64,000 nt of DNA. Source: Lampris incognitus. Its lineage: Eukaryota; Chordata; Actinopteri; Lampriformes; Lampridae. A program made the position numbers and the translations under genes. The notes under the pieces were generated by a model. That model ran no database searches. It was not told the origin of the DNA and worked only from the letters and a program-made list of their open reading frames with translations. The DNA is taken from NCBI RefSeq assembly GCF_029633865.1, contig NC_079224.1:19545395-19609394 (forward strand), given 5' to 3'. Shown here one piece after another: positions 22,765 through 56,010 of the stretch; within the stretch, counting starts at the first letter, position 1; every line of letters begins with the position of its first letter.

Positions 22765-24259
22765 TTAGTGTCCCGCCGCGGGGGCAGATCTGTCTGTGGT
22801 CGTGTACTGTGGCAGATCACCAAACTTGTGTAGGGCTACCAGCTCCTGAAGCCGTCCTTTGTAGTTTTCCTCTGGGATAAGAGACCATGTTGCATTTAAA
22901 AACAGGGACAAGGTAGGGAAAACCTGCCTAGTGACAACTGTAGGCAGTTGTTGGTTTCAAGGAGCAATCTGTATCACAGTACCGCAAATTCTATCCCCCC
23001 CCCTTTTTCTCCCCAGTTGCACTTTTGGCCAATTACCCCACTCTTCCAAGCTGTCCCAGTCACTGCTCTACCCCCCCCCCCCCCGCCGCGTTGATCCGGG
23101 GAGGGTTGCAGACTACCACGTCTCCTCCGATACATGTGGAGTCGCCAGCTGCTTCTTTTCACCTGACAGTGAGGGGTTTCGCCAGGAGGACGTAGCGCGT
23201 GGGAGGATCACGCTATTCCCACCAGTTCCCCCTCCCCCCAAACAGGTGCCCCAACTGACTGACCAGAGGAGGCGCTAGTGCAGCAAACAGGACACATACC
23301 CATATCCGGCTTCCCACCCGCAGACACGGGTGGGAAGCCGTGCAGGGATGCTCGACCAAGCCGGAGGTAACACAGGGATCGAACCAGCAATCCCCGTGTT
23401 GGTAAACAACGGAATAGACCGCTGCACTATCCGGACGCCCAATACCGCAAATTCAAGGAGATTGTTTAGATTAATTGGATGAAGTGATTGTCAGGGTTAT
23501 TGATACGGCAACTGTTCAGGGGCAACAGAGGTAAAACACTTGATTTGTATGGTGGCGCCGTAAGAAGTGTGTTTTTGGTAGTGTTTGTGGTAAGGCAGGT
23601 GTCTATCTTGGGTTAAGTGGATTAAACAACACCAAAAACCTATTTTACATCCAATTTATGTGAGTACATTTTATATTTGTCTTGTCAAAAACATATAAAT
23701 AAGTAAAAAAAACAAGGTTGCATTGCTGTTTTATTGAATGCTTGCTTCCAGTTAGCTGTGTTGCAGCCTGTACACGCCATATTGACCCTCGACATAAACC
23801 AGTGATGAAGATGTTAGACAGTAGGTCCTGACTGTGGCCCAAAACTTTTACTATGCAATGCATTTCACCAGATGTTTATTTCACTCCTTCTGAGGAAGGG
23901 GTTGAATGTGTCTTTCTGGAGTGGGTGCTACCCAGTAAAGAAACCTTCCTGACCTGGAAGCTTGGTGCTCATTCCTCCCAGGAGCCCTTCCAGATGCTTC
24001 AGGGCCTCCTTGGCTGCCAGCTGTTCTGCTGTCTGCTTCCTCAGTGCCCCCACTCAAAAAGACAGGGTTGTGGTGTTATTGCTATGTTGTGTTTTGTCCT
24101 GCTATAACACTTGTTGAGAATGCCATTATATTTGCCATTTCATTTGATATGCTGAATTTCTGAATCAAATGTTTTGTCCTGCTATAACACTTGTTGAGAA
24201 TGCCATTATATTTTCCATTTCATTTGATATGCTGAATTTCTGAATCAAATTGAATCAAA

Positions 24260-24332
<73 letters not shown>

Positions 24333-24427
24333 TACGAGACAGACGGATAGACAGAACGATAGATAGAACGATAGATAGATAGATAGAATGATAGATAGGT
24401 AGATAAAATGATAGAACAATAGAACGC

Positions 24428-24523
<96 letters not shown>

Positions 24524-24819
24524 AACAGACTAAAAGACAACGGAGATACGAAAACTGCCTACCTGGACTGTAGAAGGTGAATTTTCCATCAATTTTTAGA
24601 GTGCATTGGTGTTCGCCATTAGTTGTAATTCTCTCTTCTTCCTCAGGGGCTTGACATGTTGTCCGTGTGAAAAACTCAAGAACTAACTGCTTCTCTTCAG
24701 CTAGGCCCACAAGACAAGATCAAATCAAATCAAATCAATTTTATTTGTATAGCCCAATATCACAAATTACAAATTTGCAAGATCCTTTACAACAGAATTC
24801 TGTGTTGTGTGCATATGTA

Positions 24820-24857
<38 letters not shown>

Positions 24858-25008
24858 CACCTACCTGTTGTAGCTGTAGGACCAAGGGACAAGTCCTTTA
24901 GTAAACTACAGTAGGCAACTTGTAGCGCCTCCTTCTGGCTGGAGGCCTCATGAGTTTTGAGCTGTTTCTTTACAGTCACCGTCACACACCCTAGGAACTG
25001 CCCATCAT
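22765..25008 (-). CDS. Gene B terminal dsRBD exons V, U, T and S
   Basis: V 24865-25008 is X-type ([34 protein letters not shown]). U 24563-24700 is Y-type ([27 protein letters not shown]). T 23954-24052 is the front of a Z-type exon ([20 protein letters not shown]). S 22765-22871 opens another dsRBD ([17 protein letters not shown]) and then stops after DRSAPAAGH. All join in phase 1. These are diverged relatives of the cassette and probably show its ancestral, unamplified form. The protein ends with half a dsRBD, unless a further exon is spliced upstream of this stop. Confidence 0.68.
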
Positions 25009-28000
25009 CTGAAAGGAAGGATTTGAAGATCCATTCCAATGATTTTAATTCAAGTTTACTGGGGGATATTAATGAAGGAGTGCAATTTTTGTTTAAACTT
25101 TTGAAGTGTCATTTGATTTGTTATAACTGTTTTAGTACAGCCTGGTAAATGGACTGCATTTATATAGCGCTTTTCAAGTCTACCGACCTCTTAAAGCGCT
25201 TTACAGTGTATGCCTCACATTCAGACACACATTCATACACTGATGCTGGAGGCTGCCATGCAAGGCGCCAACCTGTTCATCAGGAACAGTTAGGAGCTCA
25301 GGGTCTTGCTCAAGGACACTTCGATATGCTCTCTAGAGGAGCTGGGGAACGAACCGGCGAGTTCCGATTACTGGATGACCCGCTCTACCTCCTGAGCCAT
25401 GCCACTTCTCAGGTAACTATGTTCACAAACCATCTGTTAAAAATACAACAAAACTGGTAAATGTAATTTTCATTGGACTTGATCTTTAACACTTGGTAAA
25501 AGTAAAAAAAAAAATTGACTCCCCTGTATGATGTAATTCATTAAACCTTTAAGGCTTTCCATGATGTAATTGCTTAGAACTCAGTAGACGATTTGACTGC
25601 AGACCAGTTTACTTGGGAAAAAAATCTATTAATTTCCATCCATCCATCCATTATCCGAACCACTTATCCTGCTCTCAGGGTCGTGGGGATGCTGGAGCCT
25701 ATCCCAGCAGCCATTCAGTGGCAGGCGGGGAGACACCCTGGACAGGCCACCAGGCCATCACACAGGGCTGACACACACACACCTAGGGGCAATTCATACC
25801 TAGGGGCAATTTAGTATGGCCAGTTCACCTGACTTACATGTCTTTGGACTGTGGGAGGAAACCGGAGCACCCAGAGGAAATCCACGCAGACATGGGGAGA
25901 ACGTACAAACTCCACACAAAGGATGACCCGAGACGACCCACAAGGTTGGACTACCCCGGGGCTCGAACCCAGGACCTTCTTGCTGTGAGGCGACTGTGCT
26001 AACCACTGTGCCGGCGCGCAGCCCTATCCATTGTGATATACATTATATATTATATTTTTACCGTGGACCACATAACGCCCAGCAACAGTTTCTTACCCTC
26101 TGGTATGGTAGGTGTGGCTTTGGTCTCCATGGTAACAGGGATATCAGCACATGATGGATGGGACACCTGAGTGTTTAGAAGTTGACTATTTTGCGAAATG
26201 CCAATGACTGACACCTTACTGGGGCGGTCAGTCTCATTCTCCATCTTATCCTTCTCTGATAGTGTATCCAGCACACACCCTGGCCCCTCTTTCTCTACTC
26301 CATCCCCGCTCTTATGTCTGATCCTACTTTGCGAAAGGTCAATTGTGTCTGTAAGGATGTCCGACCAAGGCGGAGGTAAAAGGGGAAACTAACCGGCGAT
26401 CCCGTGTTGGAAGGCAACGGAATAGACAGCCATGCTACCCAGATTTCCCTAATCAATGTCATTTCTGTTGTGATTGTTGCTGCTCTGTTCTGTACCCTAT
26501 AGGGGGTCTTTACTGCTGCTCTCCCTGCCTTAGGCTTTCCACGTATGCACGTGGAAGGGCAGAGAGGTCCCAGATCAGAGCCATACCACCAAATACAACT
26601 TACTGCAGATGGCAATAAAAGTTTCTTTTAACTAAAGTGGTCCTGACTGAACTATACAACAGGATATTTGTAATCTAATTTACAAAATCTGTGCAGTATT
26701 ATTTACTACTGCACTTGTACTTTCATACATTTCTACTTATAGTTTTTTATTTGTATTCTTTTTTTTGCAATTTTAGTTTTTATACTAATTTCTGATATTT
26801 GCCTTTGATATGTAACCCTATACTTAATATCAATTTTATCTTGCTGTGCACATATGCAACATACCAAGTCAAATTCCTTGACTTGTGTTAATTGTGAAAC
26901 GTAAAAGTTTACAACATATGATTTGCAACATGACTCAGTGAACAAGAGCTTTGCTTGAATGTAGACCAGGTTACCCTCACCATCTTTTCTTTCTTCCCCG
27001 CTCTGATGTTTGATCCTCTGCCTGATTTGTGTTTCTTCGCCTCTGTCCTGGTTCGCCACCCATCTTGCTCTTTCCCCTGAACTCTCCGGTGTGTCGCTGC
27101 AGTCATAACGCTCTCTCCCCAGCTTCCAGGCGTCCACAAGTTCCTTCAGGGCTCCGACATAATTTTCACCCAAAACTCTCTTTTCCTCCAGGACCCCGCC
27201 CAGCCCCTGCAGGGCTGCTGTGGCTGCCTGTTGCTGCGCCTGCTTCTTCTTCTTAGAGCCCTCTGGTGGGAGAAAAACACTAAACTGTTTCAAAGAACAT
27301 TTCAAACCACCACATATATCACCATTATTCAAATAATGTATATTGAATTGCACTGTATTCTGTATTTCCATCAGTATAATCTTGGTTGGTGTTATTTCTA
27401 CTCTTTGTAATCAAATCATGTGCTGGAATTGGATGCATCTATGCATCTACGCGACATTTACAGCCATTTTACGTAAAACATTTCGGTCAACACTGAATCG
27501 ACCTACTGCAATGTTGTTTGTGAGATTGTTGCCGTACATACTATTAAACCAGTCAACAAAACAGTAAGTAAAGTTTTTGTGACATGACGTGGCACAACAG
27601 GGGTAAAATTTTGTAATGACGATTGTTTGAGTTTTTACCCAAATCATAAAAGGTGATTTCTCCCTTGAGATGAAGGCTGAAGAGACCACATGTATTGATT
27701 TCCTCTGGAGGTGGGACACCATGTCTCTGACAGTACTGCAGAACCTGCTCCTTATAGGAAGAACCTGGAATGATAAATGGTGGTGATACTGAGGAAAATG
27801 GTCAGAGGGGATTTCTTTAACAATATTATGAAGAGCAGCACAAGGAGCTCAGTCTCCAACCTGACGCTGAGCCGTCCAGTCCAAATACAGAGGCTATTTT
27901 CTTATAGACAGACTCTGCAGCCTTCATCGTGTCACATCCGCGGTCAGAAGACACCTTGGTGTCAAGGGCCACAGTGACACTGTAAAAGAAACAGGGGCCT

Positions 28001-31000
28001 GAAGAAAGCGGTGAAATCTAAGGTTAGATCACTTTGGCTTTAATTTGGAGTAAAGTGTGTGCAACCTCTTTTGTCACCGTCAACGTCAAAACACCATAAA
28101 CTGTCCCCACCTTCTAAAACATCACATAAGACACTCTTTAATATCAATATCAGGAACTAACTTGTGCAATAGTATTGAGCATTGCGTGAGTTCAGGCAGG
28201 CCACAAAGACAAGCTCAGTTTACAATCCCACCGACATCAGCTGATCTCAAAGCCAGCCCAAATCAGCTGATTCCCTCCTATGCGTCCAAATGTCAAATCT
28301 TAGGCTTTCCACGTATGCACGTGGAAGGGCAGAGAGGTCCCAGATCAGAGCCATACCACCAAATACAACTTACTGCAGATGGCAAAAAAAGACTCCTTTG
28401 ACTAAAGTGGTCCTGACTGAACTATACAACAGGATATTTACAATTCAATTTAAAAAAAATCAGTGTAGTATTGTTTACTACTGTACTTGTACTTTCATAC
28501 ATTTCTACTCATAGTTTTTTATTTGTATTTCTTTTTGAACTTTTAGTTTTATACCAATTTCTGATATTTGCCTTTGATATGTAACCCTATACTTAATTTC
28601 CACTTTTATCTTGCTGTGTACATATGCAACATACCAAGTCAAATTCCTTGTATGTGATGACACTTGGCCTATAAAAACTGGCTGTGCTTGTGTTAATTGT
28701 GAAATGTAAAAGTTTACAACATATGATTTGCAACATGACTCAGTGAACAAGAGCTTTGCTTGAATGTAGACCAGGTTACCCTCACCATCTTTTCTTTCTT
28801 CCCCGCTCTGATGTTTGATCCTCTGCCCGACTTGTGTTTCTTCGCCTCTCTCCTGGTTCGCCACCCATCTTACTTTTTCCGCTGAAGTCGCCAGTGTGTC
28901 GCTGCAGTCATAATGCTCTCTCCCCAGCTTCCAGGTGTCCACAAGTTCCTTTAGGGCTCCGACATAATTTTCACCCAAAACTTTCTTTTCCTCCAGGACC
29001 CCACTCAGCCCCTGCAGGGCTGCTTTGGCTGCCTGTTGCTGCGCCTGTTTCTTCTTCTTAGAGCCCTCTGGTGGGGAAAAAAAAACACTAAACTGTTTCG
29101 AAGAACATTTCAAACCTCCACATATCATCAGTATTCAAATAATGTATATTGCATTGCATTGCATTCTATATTTCCATCAGTATAATCTTGGTTGATGTTA
29201 TTGCTACTCTTTGCACTCAAATTATGTGCTGGAATTGCATGCATCTATGCAACATTTACAGTCATTTTACGTAAAACATTTCGGTCAACACTGGCATGAT
29301 CTACTGCAATGTTGAGATCTACATATTGTGTTGTTTTATATGTATTCAGGAAATGTAAACCATAATGTGCTCTGCCGTGAGTCAGTTTCTCCACAGAGAT
29401 TGTTTAGCTTTCCTCTATTCTGAACACTTACAGCCAATAAACTTAACAACGAAGCATAATAGATACTCCTTTTGAAATAGGTCAAAATACGTCATAGGCT
29501 TTGCAAATAATTAAACCTCAAAATGCCATACATACTGTCAACCCAGACAACAAAACAGTGAGTAAAGTCTTAGTGACATGACGTGGCACAACAGGGGTAA
29601 AATTTTGTAATGACGATTGTTTGAGTTTTTACCCAAATCATAAAAGGTGATTTCTCCATTGAGATGAAGGCTAAAGGGATCAGATGTACTGATTTCCTCT
29701 CGAGGTGGGACACCATGTCTCTGACAGTACTGCAGAACCTGCTCCTTATAGGGAGAACCTGGAATGATAAATGGTGGCGATACTGAGGAAAATGGTCAGA
29801 GGGGATTTCTTTAACAATATTATGAAGAGCAGCACAAGGAGCTCAGTCTCCAACCTGACGCTGAGCCGTCCAGTCCAAATACAGAGGCTATTTTCTTATA
29901 GACAGACTCTGCAGCCTTCATCGTGTCACATCCGCGGTCAGAAGACACCTTGGTGTCAAGGGCCACAGTGACACTGTAAAAGAAACAGGGGCCTGAAGAA
30001 AGGGGTGAAATCTAAGGTTAGATCACTTTGGCTTTAATTTGGAGTAAAGTGTGTGCAACCTCTTTTGTCACCGTCAATGTCAAAACACCATAAACTGCCC
30101 CCACCTTCTAAAACATCACATAAGACACTCTTTAATATCAACATCAGGAACTAACTTGTGCAAAGTATTGAGCATAGCGTGAGTTCAGGCAGGCCACGAA
30201 AACAAGCTCAGTTTACAATCCCACCGACATCAGCTTTTAGCAGCTGATCTCAAAGCCAGCCCAAATCAGCTGATTCCCTCCTATGCGTCCAAATGTCAAA
30301 TCTCATACAGGGCACCTTATTTAAGCTGCTTTAGCCTGCCTACCCTTCTTGCTGCCCTGCAAGCTGGTTTGCAACCCGCCTCCACCCCAACTCCTCCTTT
30401 TCATGCTGGGTCGGACTCAGACCTGACTTAATCAATGTCATTTCTGTTGTGATGGTTGCTGCTCTGTTCTGTACCCTATAGGGGGTCTTTACTGCTGCTC
30501 TCCCTGCCATAGGCTTTCCACGTATGCACGTGGAAGGGCAGAGAGGTCCCAGATCAGAGCCATACCACCAAATACAACTTACTGCAGATGGCAAAAAAAG
30601 ACTCCTTTGACTAAAGTGGTCCTGACTGAACTATACAACAGGATATTTATAATTCAATTTAAAAAAAAATCAGTGTAGTATTGTTTACTACTGTACTTGT
30701 ACTTTCATACATTTCTACTTATAGTTTTTTATTTGTATTCTTTTTTGAACTTTTAGTTTTATACCAATTTCTGATATTTGCCTTTGATATGTAACCCTAT
30801 ACTTAATTTCCACTTTTATCTTGCTGTGTACATATGCAACATACCAAGTCCAATTCCTTGTATGTGATGACACTTGGCCTATAAAAACTGGCTTGACTTG
30901 TGTTAATTGTGAAATGTAAAAGTTTACAACATATGATTTGTAACATGACTCAGTGAACAAGAGCTTTGCTTGAATGTAGACCTGGTTACCCTCACCATCT

Positions 31001-34000
31001 TTTCTTTCTTCCCCGCTCTGATGTTTGATCCTCTGCCTGACTTGTGTTTCTTCGCCTCTCTCCTGGTTCGCCACCCATCTTGCTCTTTCCCCTGAAGTCG
31101 CCAGTGTGTCGCTGCAGTCATAATGCTCTCTCCCCAGCTTCCAGGTGTCCACAAGTTCCTTTAGGGCTCCGACATAATTTTCACCCAAAACTTTCTTTTC
31201 CTCCAGGACCCCACTCAGCCCCTGCAGGGCTGCTTTGGCTGCCTGTTGCTGCGCCTGTTTCTTCTTCTTAGAGCCCTCTCGTGGGGAAAAAAAAACACTA
31301 AACTGTTTCGAAGAACATTTCAAACCTCCACATATCATCAGTATTCAAATAATGTATATTGCATTGCATTGCATTCTATATTTCCATCAGTATAATCTTG
31401 GTTGATGTTATTGCTACTCTTTGCACTCAAATTATGTGCTGGAATTGCATGCATCTATGCAACATTTACAGTCATTTTACGTAAAACATTTCGGTCAACA
31501 CTGACATGATCTCCTGCAATGCTGAGATCTACATATTGTGTTGTTTTATATGTTTTCAGAAAATGTAAACCATAATGTGCTCCTGCCGTGAGTCAGTTTC
31601 CCTACAGAGATTGTTTAGCTTTCCTCTATTCTGAACACTTACAGCCAATAAACTTAACAATGAAGCATCATAGATACTCCTTTTGAAATAGGTCAAAATA
31701 CGCCATAGGCTTTGCAAATAATTAAACCTTAAAGTGCCGTACATACTGTCAACCCAGACAACAAAACAGTGAGTAAAGTCTTAGTGACATGACGTGGCAC
31801 AACAGGGGTACAATTTTGTAATGACGATTGTTTGAGTTTTTACCCAAATCATAAAAGGTGATTTCTCCATTGAGATGAAGGCTAAAGGGATCAGATGTAC
31901 TGATTTCCTCTGGAGGTGGGACACCATGTCTCTGACAGTACTGCAGAACCTGCTCCTTATAGGAAGAACCTGGAATGATAAATGGTGGTGATACTGAGGA
32001 AAATGGTCAGAGGGGATTTCTTTAACAATATTATGAAGAGCAGCACAAGGAGCTCAGTCTCCAACCTGACGCTGAGCCGTCCAGTCCAAATACAGAGGCT
32101 ATTTTCTTATAGACAGACTCTGCAGCCTTCATCGTGTCGCATCCGTGGTCAGAAGACACCTTGGTGTCAAGGGCCACAGTGACACTGTAAAAGAAACAGG
32201 GGCCTGAAGAAAGGGGTGAAATCTAAGGTTAGATCACTTTGGCTTTAATTTGGAGTAAAGTGTGTGCAACCTCTTTTGTCACCGTCAACGTCAAAACACC
32301 ATAAACTGCTCCCACCTTCTAAAACATCACATAAGACACACTTTAATAAAAATATCAGGAACTAACTTGTGCAACAGTATTGAGCATAATGTGTGTTCAG
32401 GCAGGCCACGAAGACAAGCTCAGTTTACAACCCCACCGACATCAGCTGATAGCAGTTGATCTCAAAGCCAGCCCAAATCAGCTGATTCCCTCCTATGCGT
32501 CCAATTGTCAAATCTCATACAGGGCACCTTATTTAAGCTGCTTTAGCCTGCCTACCCTTCCTGCTGCCCTGCAAGCCAGTTTGCAATCTGCCTCCACCCC
32601 AACTCCTCCTTTTCATGCTGGATCAGACTCAGACCTGACTACTCACTGTCATTTCTTTTTTTTAATTTTGGGATTTTTCCTCACCTTTCTCCCTCCAATT
32701 GTATCCAACCAATTACCCCTCTTTCGAGCCATGCTGGTCTCTGCTTCACCCCCTCTACTGAGCTGGGGAGGGCTGCAGACTACCACATGCTTCCTCCGAT
32801 ACACATGGAGTCGCCAGCTGCTTCGTTTCACCTGACAGTGAGGAGTTGCGCCAGGGGGATGTAGTGTGTGGGAGGATCATGCTATTCCCCCCAGTTCCCC
32901 CTCCACCCTGAACAGGCACCCTGACTGACCAGAGGAGGTGCTAGTGCAGCAACTAGGACACATACTCAAACACACAGCCAATTGACCTTTCGCAAAGTCC
33001 CGCCCCCCTTTGTTACTGTTGCTATGCCCATCAAGCATTTCAGAACTATCCAGGAAGTAGCCGGAAAACACCAAAACATGAATGAAGAAATCAGCGCATT
33101 GTGTGGGTAAAAGTAACAGTAATAATACGTTAGCTGTATTAGCTATCAATAATAGCTAGTAGCAAGCTTAGCTTGGAGCAGACAGGTATTTTTGTTGATT
33201 TTGGATGGATTAAGCTGGCCATGGGGTCTGCTATACTGCGAAATCTATTGCCGACATTGCACTTCTTGCGTTCTGGGTTTCGGGAAGGGAAAGAAAATTA
33301 CACCCTCTCCGAACTTTTCAGATATCTAGTATCCGATTTGCAGATCCCATAGGCACACCGTTTCAGCATTTTGCTGTCTGTTTGAAAGCTTGACGGACCA
33401 TTGCTAAGGTAGGATTGGACAAGCACCGTTCTGGGGCGGTACTTTGCGAAAGGTCAATTGTGTCTGTAAGGATGTCCGACCAAGCCGGAGGTAAAAGGGG
33501 AATCTAACCGGCGATCCCGTGTTGGAAGGCAACGGAATAGACAGCCATGCTACCCAGATTTCCCTAATCAATGTCATTTCTGTTGTGATGGTTGCTGCTC
33601 TGTTCTGTACCCTATAGGGGGTCTTTACTGCTGCTCTCCCTGCCTTAGGCTTTCCACGTATGCACGTGGAAGGGCAGAGAGGTCCCAGATCAGAGCCATA
33701 CCACCAAATACAACTTACTTCAGATGGCAATAAAAGTTTCTTTTAACTAAAGTGGTCCTGACTGAACTATACAACAGGAACTTTGTAATCTAATTTACAA
33801 AATCTGTCCAGTATTGTTTACTACTGCACATGTACTTTCATACATTTCTACTTATAGTTTTTTATTTGCATTCTTTTTTTGCAATTTTAGTTTTATACTA
33901 ATTTCTGATATTTGCCTTTGATATGTAACCCTATACTTAATTTCACTTTTATCTTGCTGTGCACATATGCAACATACCAATTCAAATTCTTTGACTTGTG

Positions 34001-37000: not shown

Positions 37001-40000
37001 CGGTCAGAGGACACCTCGGTGTGAAGGGCCACAGTGACACTGTAAAAGAAACAGGGGCCTGAAGAAAGGGGTGAAATCTAAGGTTAGACCACCTGCTGTA
37101 TTTTTGAGTAAGTTGTAGTGTGATGTAAAGGTACCATTGGAGCTGGTGAAGTGGTACCTGCTTCTGTAGCACTTTGTGACTGGGCAATATTGTCCTCTCC
37201 ATCCCCTTGATCACTGGTTATCTCTGCAGACAGCTGCTGAAGGGCTTCTTTTGCAACGTCTTGGTGAGCTAGTATTTTAGATCTACAAATCTGATGCCCT
37301 GTGAATATCTGATTATTAACTCTCACCTTGCCCCGGAACCCTGGTGAACACACATATGCAGGGGTCAGAGGTCATTTGATTAACATTCACATCCTACGGC
37401 TTGTTGCAAAACATTTTGACAAATTTCTATTTTAGTCCATCCTGTATTTCGTCACGGGACTTAAAGTGACATTTACTTCTTAAATCATATAGTGGGTTAT
37501 AATTTGAGTACCACCTCATGGACCCACCACACGCAGGGATGAGCATTGGGGTAGGGTGTAATGCAGGCCGGGCGGCAGGCAAAGGCAGGGACTGGGGCGT
37601 GCTGCCTTCCAGCATCGCACATTGGTCCTCGGGATGTGGAATGTCACCACTCTGGCAGTGAAGGAGCCTGAGCTGGTGCGGGAGGTGGAGCGGTACCAAC
37701 TAGATTATAGTTGGGCTCACCTCCACACATAGCATGGGCTCTGGTTCCAAACTCCTGGAGAGGGGCTGGACTCATTACTTTTCTGGAGTTGGCCAAGGTG
37801 ACAGGTGCTGGGCGGGTGTGGGGATACCCACAAGTCCCCGGTTGAGTGTTGCCATGTTGGAGTTCTCCCCGGGGGATGAGAGTGTCGCCTCTATATGACT
37901 GCGAGTCGCTGGGGAGAAGGCTCTGACTGTTGTGTGTGTTTATGCACCGAATAGCAGTTTGGAGTATCCGGCCTTCTTGGAGTCTCTGTGGTGGTGTCCT
38001 GGATAGGGCCCTGCCTCGGGACTCTGTAGTTCTGTTGGGGGACTTCAACACTCATGTGGGCAACGATGGAGAAACCTGGAGTGGCATGATTGGGAGGAAT
38101 GGCCTCCCTGAGCTGAACCCAGACGGTGCCTTGTTATTGGACTTCTGTGTGAGTCATGGATTGGTCATAATAAACATCATGTTCAAACATGATGTTTACA
38201 TGTACTTGGTACCAGAACACCTTAGGCCGAAGCTCGATGATAGACTTTGTGGTCGTATCATCGGATCTGCGGCCATATGTTTTAGACACTTGGGTGAAGA
38301 GAGGAGCAGAGCTGTCAACTGATCACCACCTGGTGGTAAGTTGGATCAGATGGCGGGGAAGGCTACCGGACAGTCCTGGCAAACCCAAATGTGTAGTGAG
38401 GGTGAACTGGGAACGTCTGGCAGAGGCCCCTGTCCGTGAGGTCTTCAACTCCCACCCCCGGAAGAAGTTCTCATGTTTCCTGAGGGAGGCTGGGGACATG
38501 GGGTCTGAGTGGGCCATGTTAAAAGCCTCTATTGCAGATGCGGCAGGCATGAGCTGTGGTCATAAGGTCATCGGTGCCTGTTGAGGCGGCAACCCAAGAC
38601 CCAGCTGGTGGACACTGGTGGTGAAGGAAGCTGTCAGGCTGAAGAAGGAGGCCTTTTGGGCTTGGTTGGCCCAGGGGTCTCCTGAAGTAGCAGACAGGTA
38701 CTGGGAGGTCAGAAGGGCTGCGGCTTTGGCGGTCGTGGAAGCAAAAACTCGGGTGTGGGAGTAGTTCAGCAAGGCTATGGAGGAGGACTTTCAGTTGGCC
38801 TCAAGGAAGTTCTGGCAAACCATCCGGCGACTCAGGAAGGGGAAGCAGGGCTTGACTCAGGCTGTTCAGCAGGGGAGGGGAACTGTGAACCTGGACTGGG
38901 GATGTTGTTGAGCGGTGGAAAGAACACTTTGAGGAGCTCCTGAACTCGGGTAACACATCCTCAGTGGAGGAGGTAGAGTCTGAAGACTCAGGGGAAGCCC
39001 CACCCATATCCCTGGCAGAGGTCTCTGAGGTAGTTAAGAAGCTCCTCGGTGGCAAGGCACCGGGTGTGGATGAGATTTGCCCTGAGATGCTGAAGGCTCT
39101 TTACATTGTTGGGCTGTCTTGGTTGACACACCTCTTCAGTGTCGTGTGGAGGTTGGTGACAGTACCTGTGGAATGGCAGACTGGGGTGGTGGTTCCAATA
39201 TTTAAAAAAGGGGACCAGAGGGTGTGTTCTAATTATCGGGGCATCACATTGCTCAGCCTCCCTTAGAAATTCTACCCTAGGGTCCTGGAAAAGGAGGCTC
39301 TGACCGATTGTCGAACCTTGGATCCAGGAGAAACAATAAGGATTCCATCCTGGCCGTGGAACAACGGACCAACTCTTTACCTTTGCGGAAGTGCTGAGGG
39401 GGACATGGGAGTTTGACCAGCCAGTCTACATGTGCTTTGTGGACTTGGAGAAGGTTTACGACCATGTACCCCGGGACATTCTGTGGGGGGTACAGTGAGA
39501 GTATGGGGTACCGGGGCAGTTGCTACAAGCCATCTGGTCCTTGTATAACCAAAGTGAGAGTTGTGTCCGCATTCTCAGCACAAAGTCAAACACGTTTTCG
39601 GTGGGTGTCAGACTCTGCCAAGGTTGTCCCTTGTCTCTGATTCTGTTTGGGATATTCATGGACAGGATCTCAAGGCGCAGCCAAGGTGAGGAGTGTGTCC
39701 ATTTTGGGAACCTCAGAACTGCATCTTTGCTTTTCGCAGATGATGTAGTTTTGTTGGCTTCATCAGAACGTGACCTCCAGCATGCACTGGGGTGGTTTGC
39801 AGCTGAGTGTGAAATGGCTGGGATGAGAGTCAGCACCCCCAAGTCTGAGGTCATGGTTCTCTATCGGAAAATGGTGGATTGCTCCCTCTGGGTTGGGGAT
39901 GAGTTGTTGCCTCAAGTGAAGGAGTTCAAGTATCTCAGGGTCTTGTTCACGAGTGAGAGTAGGACGGAGCAGGAGATTGACAGGTGGATTGGTGCAGCAT

Positions 40001-41715
40001 CAGCAGTAATGTGGACATTGTACCGGACCGTTGTGGTGAAGAGGGAGCTGAGCCGGATGGCAAAGCTCTCAATTTACCAGTCAATCTTTGTTCCAATCCT
40101 CACCTATGGTCATGAGCTTTGGGTAGTGACCGAAAGGGTGAGATCGTGGATACAAGCAGCTGAAATGAGTTTCCTCCATAGGGTGTCTGGGCTCAGCCTT
40201 AGAGATAGGGTGAGGAGCTCAGACATCCGCAGGGAGCTCGGAGTAGAGCCGCTGCTCCTTCACGTCAAAAGGAGCTAGTTGAGGTGGTTTGGGCATCTGA
40301 TCAGGATACCTCCTGGGCACCTTCCTTTGGAGGTTTTCCGGGCACGGCCAACTGGGGGGAGATCCCGGGGTAGACCCAGAACTCGCTGGAGGGACTACAT
40401 GTCCAGTCTGGCCTGGGAACGCCCTGTGATCCCCCAGGAGTAGCTGGAGGGTGTTGCTGGGGAGAGGGACAGCTGGAGTGCCCTACTTAGCTTACTGCCA
40501 CCACGACCCTACCCCGTAGAAGCAGCTGAAGATGAATGAATAAATGAATGAATAATTTGAATCCTTTGATAGTCTGTAGTAACTGCAGTCCTTGTCATTT
40601 TGATAGTGAAGGGGTTTTAATTCTGGAAAATGCAATGACTGTACAGAAACATTAGCCCTGCATCTTTTTTGCAGGGAACCCTGGTATATTGTCAGAGGCT
40701 AATACACAAGATGATGTTATCCTCTGTATCTAATACAATGACAATGATGCCCTATCTTTAGTACAGTGATATGGAAGCTATGTTCCACGAAGATACGATG
40801 AACTGAGTTAATTTGACATATTTGCATTGATTGAAAACACAAAATACTCTCATACTTGCTTCTCTGTGCATGTGTAATAGTCACCTGTAGGCTCACGGAT
40901 CTCTGAGAAGGAAGGTTCAGGCCATCCCCATTTCCTGGCTTCCTCCAAAAGATGATTTTTATGCATTTTGGTGCTCATGTAGTCCGAATCTGAAAAACAC
41001 AGAAAAAGACTAGTACTACCAGCTCTCAGTTTTTCCACCCACAACCTTCTACAACAGTCTGTGGAAGCAAGGTCGCCCACCACATGAGTCACACACAACT
41101 CCAATTCATCAATCATTTAGTATTTCTTTGAATAGGCTCCATTCTGCTATTGCTGTAGTGTAAAGTTTCTTTAAAAGTTTTGCTATTGCACCAATACTGG
41201 TTCTTAGCCAGTTTGGTCTATTGTGGTTACAACACCATACCAACATCCAATGTTTTTTCAACTGAATGCTCTGTAGGTGTAGGTGTGCCTCAATAAAATG
41301 CAAGTGCGCACAAACACCAGCATACTGCAAACTGCTGCCAGCACCCTTTCAAAGTTGGCCAAATACAGGTACTGGTCCGCTGCTATCATCTGCGCACCAA
41401 ACTGATCTGTAAACGAACAATCCGAAATAACACACCATACTTTGGCAGTAATGGGGGAGAAATGCTCTTCTCTTACCCAGGTTGGGGGTCTGTTTTTCTA
41501 GTTCTTCCACTCTGCCCGTCAGTGAGTTGATCTGCTGTCCCTGCTGCTCCTGCACCTCCATCAGCCTCTCCCATTGGGGCAGGAGCCTCTCACGCAGGTC
41601 CTTGTTCCTTTCTAGGAACACCCTCACACATTGCAGCTCCTCCAACTAAAGACGAGTGTGCACGCACGCACGCACGCACACACAGACACACACAGACACA
41701 CACAGACACACACAG

Positions 41716-41748
<33 letters not shown>

Positions 41749-43798
41749 ACAGGTGGTTTAGTTTCTCATCATCCAACTGATCAAGCCACATATAGGCTTG
41801 TTTGTCTTCATCCACACACACAAAAAACACACAAACAAAATCAGGATGATCAAAAAATATGAATCTGCACAGGCTCTGTACCCTGTTGAATACATTAAGT
41901 TGTGTCTTACGGTAAGCCTGTTTTCACTGCTCGCTTCATGGAGTTCAAACAGGAACTCCATCTTTTCCTTCATTATCTGCAACTCCATGTCGAGTAAGTG
42001 GTTGGCATCGCGAGGTTTGATGGGGTGGGTCGAAGCAGAGTGTAATACAAGTCCAACTTCATCACTTAAAATCAGGCTGAAGTCTAGATTCTGGAGCTGA
42101 GGATTGACAAAGTCTTAAACAAAAAATCCTTTTGTTTCATCCCATAACTCAAAATCACACACTCTTTGGGCCATTTAGAAACTGTTTTCCAACATGGCCT
42201 TAAAGCTACAGTAATTAAGTTTGTCTCTTTGTCCAATTTATTGACACCAGTGATGATTAGAGGTAACAGCAGTGGCGTTTTTGCGATCAGAGTCCCACAG
42301 ATCCATTCAAAATGTGACTCTGGTGGGCAGCACCTTCTCAACGGCAAAAAAACAAAAACAAAACATGATTGACACCTGAATTTTAGCTTTTTTTTTTTTT
42401 ATAATCTGTTGGTAACGTTCTTCCAGGAACATGGTCTGCCGCATCAGCTTTTTAGCTATAGCAATTGAGCTTTTCGTTCAATTGCGCTGCTTTCCTCTTT
42501 CACATTTGGTTGCTGTAGTGATTTACCAAATCATTTTTTTTCCCAGGAGAGTATGAAAGTATTCATCAAAATGATCGAGTGTATTAGCTATTGTCTTATA
42601 TGCGAGTATCAAAATGGACATTTGTTTGCATGTAAATCATCAGGATTTTAGCTTTAAAGACCTGGACTCAGTTTGGGTAAATTAGGCATCAACATAGTGT
42701 ATAACATTGTATGATATACAACAAAAAAAGATTTATAACATGCTATTTCCACACCAAAATATCAAACTGATGATAATAATAAATGAATGACATTCACTAT
42801 ATTGTAGTGCAAACAATATGTTTGGCACTGTGTCTGATTCTTCTCCTGCAAAAATACACCAAGTGCAATGCACAACAAAGTACAGGAGTTTACTCATGAA
42901 GAGCAACGCAGAGACACACACCTCCTCGATCCTCATGGACAGGTTATTGAACTCTGGGGAGTGTCTTTCGAGTGCTCTACCCAGATTTTTAATCTGTTGC
43001 AGGAACTCCTCTAACTGCTCCAGACTCACGCTGAAGTCTGCAGAATGCATGACCTGGTTCCTGACAAAGGTCACCTACAGGCACAGGGGGAACGACATAA
43101 AAGTCAGGACACACACCATACAGCAGGACACACTCATCTATTTCTTCACTCATCTCTTGAAAAATGAAACTCTTCACTCTTGAGCTGAATCCCCTGAACA
43201 GCAGTGGTGGGCTGTCAGGGCCATCTCTGCTGGCCCTGTCAAAATCAAAATCCTAATGTAGTTTTCATAGCCAAATTGAAGTGTGCCTGAAATGTGTCTG
43301 AATTCATTTACTTGTTTTCTCATGGGGCTGAGCAGGGATTCCCATACCAGAATGTCATCTAAATGCATCCCAGCTCTTTGAGCCAGCACTACTGGTATTG
43401 CTAGCCTTTCCTTGAAGCTGAAAACTGATTACAACTTTGAGTGGCCGTGTCATCACCCAATCAAATGTCGATGTGTGGTGAAGAACGCCCCAGGGGCCCT
43501 GCGATGTAATGGTGCTAGCCCCCGGTGTCATGATCAACTTTCAGCTTGAGCCTTCGGTGGGTTGTGAGCAAACTAAAACTGCTTTCACATTGGCCAAAAA
43601 ACCCTGCTAACATCCGCCTTTTCACATTGACCAAAGGCAGACATTAGCAGGGTTTTTGTGGGGTTTTTTGGCCAGTGTGAAAGGGGTATAAGCTACGTGC
43701 TGATGGAAAACACAATGACTGCCACATTCACAGCTACTAACGATCTTGTTGTCAATCTTCTTCATGTTTTTTTGTGAATCTGGGAGGATTGTCTGCAT

Positions 43799-43875
<77 letters not shown>

Positions 43876-46800
43876 AGTTTTTTCTCTCTTCTCTCCAGTG
43901 GTATCTGGCCAATTACCCCATTCTTCCGAGTTGTCCCGGTCACTGCTCCACCCCCTCTGCTGTTCCGGGGGGGGGGGGCTGTAGACTATCACATGCCTCC
44001 TCCGATACATGTGGAGTCGCTAGCCACTTCTTTCCACCTGACAGTGAGGAGTTTCACCAGGAGGACGTAGCAAGTGGGAGGATCACGCTATTCCTCCCAG
44101 TCCCCCCCCCAAACAGGTGCAGAGGAGGCGCTAGTGCAGCGACCAGGACACATCCCCCATCCGGCTTCCCACCTGCTGTCACGGCCAAGTTTGTCTGTAG
44201 GGACACCCGACCAAGCCGGCGGTAACACAGGGACTCGATCCAGCGATCTCCATGCTGGTAGGCATGTCTGCATTTTTTACACATTCTCCCCAACGGACTA
44301 AATTGCTGGATGAATTTCATTAGAGAAAGCTGTCATGAGTCTCTCAACTTTAACTCAAGGTGGGTGTGCACATTTTTCGTGTTGAATCGAAGGCAGTGCC
44401 CTGATAATATTGTGGCTACACTTCATTGAATTTGTTGAGGTTGCGTGAGTGAACACTAAATCAACCGTGGAAACTTGCTGTTTTTGTGCCTTGAGCTGTA
44501 CGGGTGCAATCCGGTTGCTGAGTGACATAATAAAAGATCTTCTAATGGTGAAGCTGCAATAGCTGCTATAGTGCACAATGGTTTGCGTGTGCGTTGTGGT
44601 TGTTGAAGATCAGCTGTCTTGTTGGTGATGATGCAGAAATACATATAGTGCATGATAATGTATTTTGTATATGGCTGTGTTGGCTGTATCGGCATCCATA
44701 TGAGAAATTTGTGTGTGTGTGTGTGTGGGGGGGGGGTGCAGTTTGTCACTGAAGGCCCTGACTGAAACAACATGGTACGCCACTGCTGAACGGATAACAT
44801 CATCTCTCAGTTTACCATGCAAGGCTTAACTGTATGGATTGTTAAACACAAAACTTTTACCTTTGTAAGAAGATTCATCTGCACGTATTGCTCAAAATGT
44901 TTGCAAAATGACATAAGATTGAGGAAGGCGGAGATATCAAAGTCCTTTCCTAACCGTTGTGTCTTCTTGCCTTTGGGCATGTACACCTGAAATGAAAGCA
45001 GTTCTCAATGGATTATTATGATTAATAAAGGTCTAGAGAAAAAAACAACAACAACAACATGTGATGCATATCAATAATGCAGCTCGGAGGCTGTGGTCAA
45101 ATACCTTAGCCACTTCCCATTTCTCTTTGGGCCACAGCTTAGGTGTACAGTTATTCCAATACACCAGCGCACCTTTAGAGGTGTGGTTAGCCCAGATCTC
45201 ATCTCTCCAAGGAGCACACACTTTACACTGAAGAGGGGGAATCTGAAATCAGCCACAAAATAAAAGAATCAAACTAGGTCCAAAAAGGTTTGGGTCTTTT
45301 CTGCTATAGAGCCTCAAAACATGTAATGAATACTCAGAGCTTTTTCAGTTTGCTTTGCACGTGGTGCATTTAAGCCACAACATTATTAAAATTGAAAATA
45401 GATATATAGAAAGGATTCAATCAGAACATAAAATTCAAAGGATTCAACCAGGAGTTGTGGTTAGAAAATGAGAGTGAAGTCTAATTTAATGATGGAATCA
45501 TTAGATTACAAAGTTTAGAAAATAGAGCATGAATAATAATCCGTGAATGACATGCTCTTCTCTAGCATGTCACAGCATACATTTTTCCTTCTACTATGAG
45601 CTACTTGCACCCACTGTTCCCAATTAGACAGTTTTGTCACCGCATTTAGTGTCTTTTCAGAAGCCCTTGTCAACGTACCTCCTCAAAAGTGACTGGTGGC
45701 AGAGCTAGCATCTATTTCTGATCTTTAGGAGACTGTTTGGGTTGACACCAATACATTCAGCAACAAAAGTGAAGTTGACGCATGTAACACAGGCCTATCC
45801 TGTTCTGCTCTTCTGCTCTCCACCTGTTCTAATGAGAGTCAAATCTAAGAGGGGGCTGCTGTGAGCAGGGCTGTGGGCAGAGCAACTTTCCACACCGCTG
45901 CATAGATTGAAAAAGTGAAATATTATTATGTGGTGAAAAATAAGGTGGGCAGGGATAAGACAAAAAAAGTTTTTAAAATGCTTGATTCAATTTATGTTAA
46001 GATAATATGTTAGACTGGCTTCTGGAGTTTCTTTAAAATACACTGGCTAATGGTTTTGGTCTCACTCCCTCCGATGCCTGGCTGGATATGCTTCCGGTAA
46101 AAACGTAAATAGTTGTTTATCATGATGGCGTCTAATTTTTGTAAACACTTTCGTCATCCGATTTTTCTCTCTGCCAATGTAGCACTTAGTAACGGCATAT
46201 GCAAATTGCTACGCCCATAAGAAATGACGTCATCTAGCAGGTAGCGGTGTGGTGGCGAACTCTGTTTCCCCGTCGAGATCTGTTTCCCCCTAGCCAGAGT
46301 TCGACACAACACCGGGACGCTTGATTTAACCTCAACCTAACCTCAACCTCAACCTAACCCTAACCTAACGTTTACCTTTACCCAATCATAACCGATAGCG
46401 GACCCGTTTCCGTGTAACGCCTTCGCCCGGCTAGGGGGTAAGTCTTGATGGGGAAACAGTTTTTGATACCACACGCCCGAGTCCTTTGAGACAGCATTCT
46501 GGCTTCATTTTGTGGTTCTTGCTCTATTCAAGTCTATGAATGGCTGTGTCTTAAATAGTTGTGTGCTCACGATACAGTTTCAACCGGAATAAATGCCTCT
46601 GGCTGGAAGGCAATTCTGTGGTTCTGTGTTGATACAGTTAAATTACATTCAGTATCGTCTTACCGACAAACAACTGATTAAAAGTGTGGTTTCAGCAAAG
46701 GAAACCATTTTCAACCGCTGACTAGAAAACAAGTATACTTAAATGTGAGAAAAAAATTCAATATACAAATAATATCAAAATGGATGCTCATCTACTCATT

Positions 46801-47522
46801 TCTCATCAAATGCTATCTCTTTAAATGTCACTTGTACTAACAAATTGAAAAACTACAAAAAAAAAACTCATCGCTTTTTGTTGTTGTTGTTAACCAGCCA
46901 GGTTGCCAGAACTCAGAAAACATTTGTTGACAAGAAAAAATACGGTTAAAAAATATGGAATCTTTTCTTTGAATAGCTATCAATAACTCCCATAATGGAA
47001 CCCCCCCCCCCCAGGAAAATGATACATTTTCTTTGCCATAAAAAGATTTCGGTGGAGACGGACCCAGCGGGTTTATATTATTTTTTTCCTATTGCAATTT
47101 TACCCTTTAGAATGCTTTTCTATTGGAATCAGAAGAGAACTACAAGGAATGGATGGCTGTTTTGACAAAGCAGATCTAGGTTTCGTTTCCTCCCCTGCCC
47201 CTTAAATTAGTTGCACAGGAACTGACGGTGTGCGCTGTGCACCCCCGGATTTCACCAACGCAGCCGTGGTCATCAAACCGACTCCAATCACCTGATTACG
47301 CCTGGGTGCCCACTTTCCAAAGTTGCAGTTATTGGAACACTCTTGTCCCTTCAGTTGGATTTTATCGCGCAGAGCCCGGTGGAAAGTTTCGGTTTCGTTT
47401 TCCAGGAAGCTTCCCAGGCGTGTCTTCAGGTGGGCTAGAGCCAAGGTGGTTTTGATCCAGTTCTTATAACCGTCATCCTGAAACCTCCGAAAGGGATCCG
47501 TGGCGATGATAGTACTATCCAT
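22765..47522 (-). CDS. Gene B: CXorf38/HEPN-like domain fused to a long series of dsRNA-binding-like domains
   Basis: Twenty-five exons join to 4161 nt, 1386 residues, with GT-AG ends and matching phases. Exons: 47292-47522, 45105-45242, 44861-44986, 42922-43074, 41911-42096, 41477-41645, 40885-40989, 37158-37340, twelve cassette exons (listed separately), 26097-26294, 24865-25008, 24563-24700, 23954-24052, 22765-22871. Residues 1-278 align exon by exon with gene A and keep C-x2-C (CKVC) and RNQVMH (170-175). Residues about 279-334 form a glutamine-rich coiled coil. From 335 on, about ten dsRBD-like domains follow, with helix-1 ([11 protein letters not shown]) and helix-2 ([17 protein letters not shown]) signatures. 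The introns carry a LINE, a Penelope pair, SINEs and MITEs. Role inferred: dsRNA recognition coupled to an RNase-like module. Two shorter genes are possible, but phases 1/1 across 40885/37340 and one split dsRBD argue for one. Confidence 0.78.
22992..23440 (-). repeat. SINE family 1, full-length copy
   Basis: Reverse-oriented complete copy with head (minus-strand AGTGCAGCGGTCTATTCCGT), body and AATTGG tail. A C-run near 23072-23084 has expanded. It lies in the gene B intron between exons T and S. Confidence 0.8.
24091..24250. repeat. Two tandem copies of an 80-bp unit
   Basis: 24091-24170 and 24171-24250 are almost identical. They lie in the gene B intron just upstream (in gene orientation) of exon T. 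Confidence 0.9.
24262..24525. repeat. (GT)n followed by (GATA)n microsatellite
   Basis: GT repeats 24262-24330, then GATA/GAACGATA repeats to 24525, inside a gene B intron. Confidence 0.95.
24716..24856. repeat. Fish repeat tail and (GT)n tract
   Basis: AATTTTATTTGTATAGCCCA near 24737 is a repeat end common in fish genomes. It is followed by (GT)n at 24823-24856, just past the donor of exon V. Confidence 0.6.
25145..25410 (-). repeat. SINE family 3
   Basis: On the minus strand a tRNA-like head (TGGCTCAGGAGGTAGAGCGG, CCGGTTCGTTCCCC) leads into a body that ends in AAGCGCTATATAAATGCAGT. It lies in a gene B intron. Confidence 0.75.
25635..26023 (-). repeat. SINE family 2, full-length copy
   Basis: Same organisation as 21007-21416: head with GTGGTTAGCACAGTCGCC and GGGTTCGAGCCCC, body, and a GGATGGATGG tail. 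It lies in a gene B intron. Confidence 0.8.
26097..26294 (-). CDS. Gene B linker exon W
   Basis: A 198-nt exon, phase 1 in and out, encodes an acidic, serine/threonine-rich linker ([34 protein letters not shown]). Just upstream of its predicted acceptor the sequence still resembles the last codons of a Z exon (a KSGD counterpart of HQSGEE). It then meets the end of a transposon. W is probably the tail of an older Z exon whose front was lost. The acceptor choice (GGAGTAG) rests on phase alone. Confidence 0.5.
26338..26450 (-). repeat. SINE family 1 head adjoining a MITE end
   Basis: Carries the SINE head (GGTAGCATGGCTGTCTATTC on the minus strand) joined to the transposon end ACTTTGCGAAAGGTCAA. 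The same junction occurs at 33440-33567, so the two are copies of one duplicated segment. Confidence 0.7.
26981..27998 (-). CDS. Gene B dsRBD cassette 4 (X-Y-Z exons)
   Basis: Exons X 27861-27998, Y 27639-27764 and Z 26981-27262 keep the same lengths and phases. The introns are shorter than in cassettes 2 and 3 (Y-Z intron 376 bp against about 565 bp). Y reads [18 protein letters not shown] and differs slightly from the others, so this copy is older or escaped conversion. Confidence 0.78.
28786..29992 (-). CDS. Gene B dsRBD cassette 3 (X-Y-Z exons)
   Basis: Exons X 29855-29992, Y 29633-29758 and Z 28786-29067 keep 138, 126 and 282 nt, all phase 1. The repeat period to cassette 2 is 2210-2211 bp, including intron sequence, which shows a recent tandem duplication or gene conversion. 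Confidence 0.78.
30996..32203 (-). CDS. Gene B dsRBD cassette 2 (X-Y-Z exons)
   Basis: Exons X 32066-32203, Y 31844-31969 and Z 30996-31277 have the same lengths and phases as cassette 1. Y plus Z makes a canonical dsRBD with the lysine-rich [12 protein letters not shown] helix. The acceptor of Z reads CGAG instead of CCAG but keeps AG. Introns and exons are nearly identical to cassette 3 over about 2.2 kb. Confidence 0.78.
32656..33567 (-). repeat. SINE family 1 copy split by a MITE
   Basis: Tail and body at 32656-32991 and head at 33457-33567 are one SINE interrupted by the DNA transposon at 32992-33456. It lies in the gene B intron between cassettes 1 and 2. Confidence 0.8.
32992..33456. 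mobile_element. MITE inserted in a SINE
   Basis: The ends TTGACCTTTCGCAAAGT and ACTTTGCGAAAGGTCAA are exact inverted complements, each followed inward by a CCGCCCC/GGGGCGG block. The 465-bp interior has no transposase frame. CAATT flanks both sides and may be the target duplication. This is a non-autonomous DNA transposon of uncertain superfamily. Confidence 0.75.
34094..37058 (-). CDS. Gene B dsRBD cassette 1 (X-Y-Z exons)
   Basis: Exons X 36921-37058, Y 36699-36824 and Z 34094-34375 have lengths 138, 126 and 282 nt and are all phase 1 to phase 1. X gives the second half of a degenerate dsRBD (FFYSVTVAL). Y opens a new one ([30 protein letters not shown]). Z closes it ([18 protein letters not shown]) and opens the next ([17 protein letters not shown]). 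This is the most diverged cassette. The Y-Z intron is enlarged by two Penelope-like fragments and a SINE. Confidence 0.75.
34640..36430. mobile_element. Two Penelope-like element fragments, head to head
   Basis: On the plus strand from about 35885 to 36430 a GIY-YIG-type endonuclease region is visible ([34 protein letters not shown]), then a terminal repeat. On the minus strand from about 35885 to 34640 lies a second copy of the same parts ([20 protein letters not shown]), interrupted by a SINE. The two face outward and form an imperfect palindrome centred near 35885. Inverted or tandem terminal repeats are typical of Penelope-like retroelements. Both fragments lack most of the reverse transcriptase and are old. 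They sit in a gene B intron. Confidence 0.7.
35295..35690 (+). repeat. SINE family 1 inserted in a Penelope fragment
   Basis: Full-length plus-strand copy with head (GTGGCATGGCGGTCTATTGC) and AATTGGGGAGAAAAAG tail. CCACTG flanks both sides as a possible target duplication, and the host Penelope sequence continues across the insertion. Confidence 0.8.
37158..40989 (-). CDS. Gene B exons 7-8: first dsRNA-binding-like domain
   Basis: Exon 7 (40885-40989) encodes the first helix and strand ([26 protein letters not shown]). Exon 8 (37158-37340) supplies the rest ([31 protein letters not shown]). The split codon is G plus GG, so the phases agree. A complete RTE/Rex-like LINE (37500-40545) sits antisense in the intron between them. 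The donor at 37158 (GCAG/GTACCA) is chosen because it alone keeps phase 1 into the next exon. Confidence 0.75.
37500..40545 (+). mobile_element. Non-LTR retrotransposon (LINE), RTE/Rex-like, about full length
   Basis: On the plus strand an apurinic-type endonuclease region begins near 37625 ([16 protein letters not shown]) and continues ([24 protein letters not shown]). The reverse transcriptase follows ([51 protein letters not shown]). The end has a [17 protein letters not shown]-type C-terminus and a (GAAT)n tail at about 40530-40545. Several stops and frameshifts show it is inactive. The short simple-repeat tail suits the RTE/Rex3 group. It is antisense in gene B intron 7. Confidence 0.8.
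41477..47522 (-). CDS. Gene B exons 1-6: CXorf38-type (DUF4559) module and coiled coil
   Basis: Exons 1-5 begin and end in phase 0 as in gene A and give residues 1-278. Recognisable blocks are [18 protein letters not shown] (exon 1), [14 protein letters not shown] and [11 protein letters not shown] (exon 2), [10 protein letters not shown] (exon 3), [13 protein letters not shown] (exon 4) and [17 protein letters not shown] (exon 5). Exon 6 starts like gene A's last exon ([14 protein letters not shown] matches AFLQANRDLGELF). It then continues as a coiled coil ([15 protein letters not shown]) to a phase-1 donor instead of stopping. Confidence 0.85.
41660..41745. repeat. (CA)n microsatellite with CAGACA variants
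   Basis: CACG, CAGACA and CA repeats directly upstream (minus strand) of the acceptor of gene B exon 6. Confidence 0.9.
43581..43690. repeat. Imperfect hairpin element
   Basis: CTTTCACATTGGCCAAAAAA and the later TTTTTTGGCCAGTGTGAAAG are inverted complements with one mismatch. Inner blocks (CCCTGCTAACATCCGCC and GGCAGACATTAGCAGGG) also pair. It looks like a small fold-back MITE in a gene B intron. Confidence 0.65.
43803..43874. repeat. (GT)n microsatellite
   Basis: Thirty-six GT units, abutting a reverse SINE family 1 copy. Confidence 0.95.
43877..44263 (-). repeat. SINE family 1 copy
   Basis: Reverse-oriented body and head with the usual blocks (CCAATTACCCCATTCTTCCG, GATACATGTGGAGTCGC, GACCAAGCCGGCGGTAACAC). 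It lies in the gene B intron between exons 3 and 4. Confidence 0.75.
45243..47291 (-). other. Gene B intron 1
   Basis: Mostly AT-rich with no coding exon recognised. It includes CCTAAC-rich sequence (46330-46380) between ends reading CTGTTTCCCC (46259) and GGGGAAACAG (46450), perhaps a small MITE, and a C-run near 47000-47011. Confidence 0.5.
47385..47396 (-). promoter_or_regulatory. ISRE-like motif inside gene B exon 1
   Basis: On the minus strand GAAACCGAAACT matches the interferon-stimulated response element core GAAANNGAAACT exactly, and another GAAAAC lies directly before it. It falls in coding sequence about 130 bp after the start codon, so it may be chance or a downstream promoter element. 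Confidence 0.25.

Positions 47523-54834: not shown

Positions 54835-54930
<96 letters not shown>

Positions 54931-55148: not shown

Positions 55149-55192
<44 letters not shown>

Positions 55193-55944: not shown

Positions 55945-56010
<66 letters not shown>

Follow-up and report, generated by a model that had tools for sequence, protein, structure and literature searches.

Does the opah Lampris incognitus, a lampriform fish, possess a protein that couples the recognition of double-stranded RNA (dsRNA) to RNA cleavage? The question is raised by a gene, here called gene B, in a window of 64,000 nucleotides (nt) from contig NC_079224.1 (positions 19,545,395 to 19,609,394). Gene B runs on the minus strand from 47522 to 22765 and joins a DUF4559/CXorf38-type HEPN domain to an array of dsRNA-binding domains (dsRBDs). 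A preliminary description of the window had proposed that dsRNA sensing could be coupled here to an RNase-like HEPN module, and this remains the most natural reading of the sequence, in which binding and cutting are both inferred. On balance, sequence comparisons and predicted models lead us to favour the view that gene B encodes a dsRNA-recognising array coupled to a HEPN RNase that would pair, cut RNA and act against viruses.

The layout itself is not new, because it was described by Anantharaman et al. 2013 (PMC3710099). In the available part of that survey, the CXorf38 family is assigned to HEPN, dsRBD fusions are reported in vertebrates and an action on viral dsRNA is proposed. The earlier statement that no described protein has this layout must therefore be withdrawn; moreover, the opah protein is on record in NCBI and UniRef together with many relatives from fishes, some of which are named 'DRBM domain-containing' or si:ch211-91p5.3. 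What is new here is the opah array of four units built from one three-exon unit, the larger, lineage-grouped arrays in other fishes and the orphan half-domains kept at both array ends. In the open-licence PMC literature, as judged from titles or the opening of abstracts, no paper on the function of the fusion came up.

Exon structure of gene B

We rebuilt gene B manually, checked it by script and compared it with NCBI isoform X2. The gene has 25 readable exons with GT-AG borders, consistent phases and a single terminal stop. With exon 21 taken as 26270..26097, as in the preliminary description, its total of exactly 4161 nt (1387 codons) with matching phases and no internal stop was reproduced. 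A longer exon 21, starting at 26348, is also open and gives 4239 nt or 1412 amino acids (aa).

The window reproduces every letter of the NCBI protein LOC130123766 isoform X2 from L. incognitus (P0011, 1274 aa) when exons 1-17, 19, 20 and 22-25 are joined and the donors of exons 11, 14, 17 and 20 are set 6 nt upstream. This agrees with the claim of a single gene, and the two junctions on which that claim had been staked (41477/40989 and 40885/37340) are both present in the X2 model. Exons 18 and 21 are absent from X2. The 3' part of exon 21, a linker exon (26097..26348), resembles linkers of Centroberyx gerrardi (14 of 25 residues, E-value 0.017 in a 72-protein database) and, more weakly, those of salmonids; because of this resemblance, exon 21 may be coding in another isoform.

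We considered whether two neighbouring genes had been misjoined, with exons 1-6 forming a second CXorf38-like gene and exons 7-25 a dsRBD gene of its own. Two features are compatible with such an error: past exon 6 the intron phase changes from 0 to 1, and the intron after exon 7, 3.5 kb long, bears a long interspersed nuclear element (LINE). However, the same join occurs in the NCBI model and in relatives from sturgeon to cod, and we regard a misjoin as very improbable. The preliminary description had suggested a search for the same fusion in other fishes, and it was indeed found from sturgeon, gar and bowfin to cod: proteins with DUF4559 and Pfam dsrm occur in sturgeon, gar, bowfin, eels, tarpons, bonytongue, characins, loach, salmonids, pikes, gadids and early acanthomorphs. 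The intron after exon 7 (37341-40884) contains, in a plus-strand open reading frame (ORF) at 39520-40278, a reverse transcriptase that is of LINE type by look (RVT_1, E 8.4e-12).

The HEPN domain and its putative active site

The DUF4559/CXorf38 profile (PF15112) matched residues 13-327 of gene B over positions 1-305 of 305 (E 2.3e-79, 267.5 bits; cut-off 27). Exon 1 (47292..47522) begins the domain with Met1 and contains E43, C62 and C66. The second Cys pair (C83, C86) of an inserted zinc-ribbon-like part lies in exon 2 (45105..45242), and exon 3 (44861..44986) continues the HEPN domain. Exon 4 (42922..43074) encodes the motif R170-N171-x3-H175, which conforms to the Rx4-6H motif of RNases, in which R is followed by a polar residue. 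The helical part of DUF4559 follows in exon 5 (41911..42096; also placed by alignment with the neighbouring gene A, described below) and its helical or coiled end in exon 6 (41477..41645; also placed by the profile). With the profile match and the intact R-N-x3-H motif, the CXorf38/HEPN-like domain of the preliminary description stands.

To what extent is the putative active site kept? In an alignment (A3) of 43 of the 72 proteins retrieved, R, N and H of the motif were invariant in all 43 rows, and each of the four zinc-ribbon Cys was kept in 40 or 41. A strict motif pattern matched 63 of the 72 proteins. Among the nine others, the site reads RNRVMH in P0051 and RNKVMY, without the His, in P0058; no motif was seen at the site in P0015, P0041, P0050, P0056, P0070, P0071 and P0072, some of which are possibly short or exon-skipping models, and P0070 is gapped there.

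In the predicted model of a relative from Alosa (P0007; predicted local distance difference test 89.9, predicted template modelling score 0.89), the motif lies where helix 3 ends and the following loop begins, the position described for HEPN domains in the available part of PMC3710099. The HEPN_Swt1 profile scored above its cut-off in P0007 and P0052 and reached E <= 0.01 in 13 of the 43 proteins; the Pfam searches gave no such match for the opah gene B protein. A structure search with the HEPN part returned no confident solved match but mostly armadillo/HEAT-like and other helical rows, a result that neither establishes nor excludes the HEPN family. By sequence, no solved relative of this part appeared at a meaningful E-value (best 0.27, Lamin-B1). 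The assignment of gene B to HEPN, which we consider probable, draws on the motif, its position, weak profile matches and the published classification.

These results also bear on the possibility that the HEPN domain is not a working nuclease and serves as an RNA or protein contact domain, the whole protein being a dsRNA-binding scaffold or decoy that regulates, for example, PKR, Dicer or RNA editing. A scaffold role is known from long multi-dsRBD proteins such as Staufen. The missing HEPN structure match would fit this explanation, as would the statement in the available part of the 2013 survey that certain HEPN domains are believed to have non-catalytic roles (PMC3710099). Yet the invariance of R, N and H in all 43 aligned rows suggests selection on an active site, and the same source, as far as available, lists the CXorf38 family among the active HEPN domains. 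We therefore hold a non-catalytic HEPN domain to be unlikely, and prefer a HEPN RNase.

Viral capture was considered as well. A scan of viral contigs with the HEPN sequence as the single query, which reaches close relatives only, matched eight stretches, none of which was confirmed.

The dsRBD array and its growth in fishes

The preliminary description had counted about ten dsRBD-like domains. By element order, ten complete domains are indeed present (1 + 5 + 4), but only six are recognisable by profile; four are divergent, and two unpaired half-domains have to be added. A profile built here found six dsRBDs in the 1412-aa model, and Pfam dsrm (PF00035) matched six stretches in P0011 (E 1.2e-32). 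The dsRBD fold was predicted in a relative's model; by sequence, no solved relative of a stretch of the array was found at a meaningful E-value (best 0.14).

The array begins with dsRBD 1, whose helix 1 and strand 1 lie in exon 7 (40885..40989) and whose strands 2-3 and helix 2 lie in exon 8 (37158..37340), followed by an acidic linker. Against Pfam dsrm it scored 22.3 bits with exons 7 and 8 and 18.6 bits in another search (cut-off 23). Then come four copies of a three-exon, phase 1-1 unit. In unit 1, exon 9 (36921..37058; also seen in the relative's model) encodes an orphan half-domain of strands 2-3 and helix 2, and exon 10 (36699..36824) the first part of a B-type dsRBD. Exon 11 (34088..34375; NCBI donor end 34094) supplies helix 2 of this dsRBD and goes on to helix 1 and strand 1 of the A-type domain that comes next and to a linker. 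Units 2, 3 and 4 likewise consist of an A-type half (exon 12, 32066..32203; exon 15, 29855..29992; exon 18, 27861..27998, skipped in X2), a first part of a B-type dsRBD (exon 13, 31844..31969; exon 16, 29633..29758; exon 19, 27639..27764) and an exon laid out as exon 11 (exon 14, 30990..31277; exon 17, 28780..29067; exon 20, 26975..27262). The acceptor of exon 14 (31278-31280) reads GAG, that of units 1, 3 and 4 CAG; the NCBI model still uses it. After the linker exon 21, a second kind of unit follows with an A-type half in exon 22 (24865..25008; also placed by the tree below) and a B-type dsRBD whose first part is in exon 23 (24563..24700) and whose helix 2 is in exon 24 (23954..24052). Exon 25 (22765..22871) adds an orphan helix 1 and strand 1 before the stop.

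Four of the five B-type domains exceeded the Pfam dsrm cut-off of 23, with 28.2, 28.3, 25.2 and 30.9 bits, the last for exons 23 and 24; the domain in exons 16 and 17 was matched by the profile built here, and those in exons 10 and 11, 13 and 14, and 19 and 20 by Pfam. The four alternating A-type domains (exons 11b+12, 14b+15, 17b+18 and 20b+22) are divergent, and by eye their last helix begins without the basic patch. None of the three submitted matched a Pfam family. Their element order is dsRBD-like in the relative's predicted model; profile comparison was weak (probability 6-8% versus 81% for the control, dsRBD 1 with B-type).

A different topology, in which exons 9-11 form a closed unit and the A-type domain is a circular permutant around an inserted B-type domain, was considered. 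Profile comparison with 20 of the 72 proteins favoured the linear order, with 69-71 versus 33-44 aligned columns. All scores in this test were weak (probability 3-8%; 81% for the same control), and the half before the B-type domain alone scored against B-type as well as the whole A-type domain did.

How recent are the four units, and are they under selection? They differ at 51 of 549 sites, with 34 replacement and 8 silent variable codons and a ratio of nonsynonymous to synonymous substitution rates (dN/dS) of 0.66-2.13, and no purifying selection was seen between them where we looked for it. Between units, identity in the 96-nt intron (95.8-100%) is at least as high as in the exons; the longer introns contain insertions and align at 66-98%. 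These data, and the skipping of exon 18 in X2, would suit the explanation that the extra units are recent, largely neutral duplicates or an assembly effect and that the functional protein is an ancestral form with fewer dsRBDs. On the other side, all four units are open with usable splice sites, for which the chance under random substitution was 0.065, an underestimate since 12 changes common to units 2 and 3 were counted twice; four open units are thus a mildly surprising outcome of random change. The larger arrays that also occur in Centroberyx, Polymixia, cods, Conger and Synaphobranchus would moreover not result from one assembly error. Neutral duplication is a credible explanation, but we think it rather doubtful.

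In the B-type dsRBD, the loop that joins strands 1 and 2 (in 36699-36824, 31844-31969, 29633-29758 and 27639-27764) differs between otherwise near-identical units, and its variable codons are mostly replacements. Variable sites cluster in loop codons 65-74 (10 in 30 nt), a density reached in 36 of 2000 shuffles; with windows of 18 and 24 nt it was reached in 30 and 35 of 2000. This clustering is suggestive only, because gene conversion could produce it.

The number of dsRBD profile matches varies among fishes: four each in gar, bowfin and sturgeon, five or six in Centroberyx, six in opah, seven in Gadus macrocephalus and six in Gadus morhua (five in isoform X5). Because of the higher counts we conclude that, in these sequences, arrays did grow and that two different modules were repeated; in the cods (P0016-P0020) the repeated module is of the exon 22-24 type and not of the exon 9-11 type, and three segments are identical in Gadus macrocephalus.

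A tree was built from 68 segments, taken around the B-type domains of 23 proteins after matches of 64 bits or less had been dropped; in it, copies of the larger arrays grouped by lineage. At support 100/99, opah units 1-4 grouped together, and so did the six units from two Centroberyx species and ten cod copies of the other module; support was 100/98 and 100/99 for two Polymixia pairs and 100/98 for three Conger units. The deepest forks were weak, and one Megalops row sat on a very long branch. In Astyanax, Paramisgurnus and Anguilla, two ordinary copies also grouped by species, and gene conversion in the family is therefore likely. The arrays appear to have grown separately in several fish lineages, their grouping reflecting independent growth or gene conversion; number and timing of the growths are blurred.

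Among 70 matches, no dsRBD-fused DUF4559 protein came, by species name, from a percomorph, in a search that scored only candidates sharing most words; a loss of the dsRBD-fused form in percomorphs is possible. The percomorph NCBI model P0052 (Sebastes umbrosus) has three DUF4559 stretches, by eye the first similar to gene A and the later ones to gene B, and a C-terminal caspase domain, without dsRBDs. It may be a HEPN-caspase fusion or the product of neighbouring genes merged by annotation, and suggests that the A-B neighbourhood persists in percomorphs. In Scatophagus argus, DUF4559 lies within proteins named ZBED1-like (P0059, P0060).

The two orphan halves are complementary: exon 9, at the start of the array, supplies strands 2-3 and helix 2, whereas exon 25, at its end, supplies helix 1 and strand 1. 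A first half of the exon 9 type was recognisable by eye in all 12 proteins listed. Among 25 proteins examined, 10 have a chain that stops just beyond strand 1, 30-46 residues past the last helix 1; all 10 are acanthomorphs and lack the C-terminal part present in gar and salmon. Of the remaining two acanthomorphs in the set, Merluccius polli P0025 ends without the end half, and Lota P0004, labelled partial, ends elsewhere. Both halves were predicted with fair to high confidence in the relative's model (block means 88-96 and 80-92). A speculative interpretation, to which we give little weight, is that the array is a self-closing, extensible dsRNA ruler: the exon 9 and exon 25 halves would form a last dsRBD and close a loop, units could be gained or lost without breaking a domain, and lineages would repeatedly change the loop size and so retune a dsRNA-fired RNase, while the RNA-facing loop of the B-type domains varies.

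Proposed mechanism, comparable systems and the surrounding window

How might a HEPN RNase be controlled by the array? We hypothesize that the B-type dsRBDs bind dsRNA and that the divergent A-type domains act as spacers or protein contacts. Several molecules gathered on one dsRNA could then pair through their HEPN domains, and pairing would switch on metal-independent RNA cleavage. Pairing of RNase L is driven by 2',5'-oligoadenylate (2-5A), and that of PKR by dsRNA. The number of dsRBDs, presumably the fastest-evolving feature, would set the length or avidity of the triggering dsRNA.

As the sequence gives no basis for distinguishing viral from cellular dsRNA, the target could also be dsRNA of cellular origin, for example transposon transcripts or maternal RNA. 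Against this speak the links of CXorf38-type HEPN to the immune domains NACHT and DEATH in other animals, reported in the available part of PMC3710099, and the caspase domain of the Sebastes model P0052, possibly a merged annotation. A purely cellular target is in our opinion improbable, and a role against viruses is preferred.

Comparable systems share parts of this arrangement. Like gene B, RNase L is a vertebrate antiviral effector with an RNase of the HEPN superfamily (KEN), but it senses 2-5A via ankyrin repeats and has no dsRBD. The Pfam matches of gene B included no kinase family, ankyrin repeats or kinase-like domain. Fish PKR also joins dsRBDs to an effector, and its dsRBD number varies among fishes, which provides a precedent for such changes in an antiviral protein; according to the available text, it differs from gene B in its kinase effector and in having one to three dsRBDs (PMC2291453). 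Cyanobacterial HEPN-RNase III-dsRBD proteins combine HEPN and dsRBD in one chain but have a second nuclease domain, RNase III (PMC3710099, available part). Closest are the CXorf38-dsRBD fusions themselves (PMC3710099, available part; si:ch211-91p5.3), which share DUF4559, R-N-x3-H, the inserted Cys4, the dsRBDs that follow and the proposed targeting of dsRNA or viruses. The opah protein differs from them in its array, enlarged to four three-exon units, and in lacking the C-terminal dsRBD-like part of gar, bowfin and salmonids; neither array size nor half-domains are mentioned in the available part of PMC3710099.

If the fish sister of CXorf38 is a dsRNA-triggered RNase, vertebrate defences would include a further direct route from dsRNA to RNA decay, alongside those of PKR and OAS/RNase L. 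The human gene CXorf38, on which little work has been done, would acquire an activity that can be tested. Opah, Centroberyx, Polymixia, cods and eels, with their differing numbers of dsRBDs, would offer a natural series relating array length to trigger threshold.

Upstream of gene B on the same strand lies gene A (53089..58189), which is CXorf38 proper (DUF4559, E 5.7e-66) with six exons (58189-57986, 57718-57584, 56504-56382, 56158-56009, 53502-53320 and 53199-53089). Another HEPN profile scored 21 bits against it (cut-off 27.5). In the alignment of genes A and B, 93 of 295 residues are identical. Of the five inner exon borders, four coincide, and the fifth is two alignment columns off. The exon-by-exon parallel, previously noted for residues 1-278, was confirmed and extends through exon 6 (residue 334). 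From the shared DUF4559, the identity and the exon borders we conclude that the sequences are those of old tandem duplicates. CXorf38 proper, also present in sharks and amphibians, shares the HEPN domain and inner exon borders with gene B but has no dsRBDs; of the pair, gene B alone carries them.

Elsewhere in the window, plus-strand ORFs of 201 aa (48839-49444, between genes A and B) and 1208 aa (660-4286) matched no Pfam family at E 0.01. A run of unread bases at about 60200-60460 is probably an assembly gap. Retroelement-like pieces lie on the minus strand at 5255-6654, with a match to DUF7041 (E 5e-18) and a weak match to a gag aspartyl protease.
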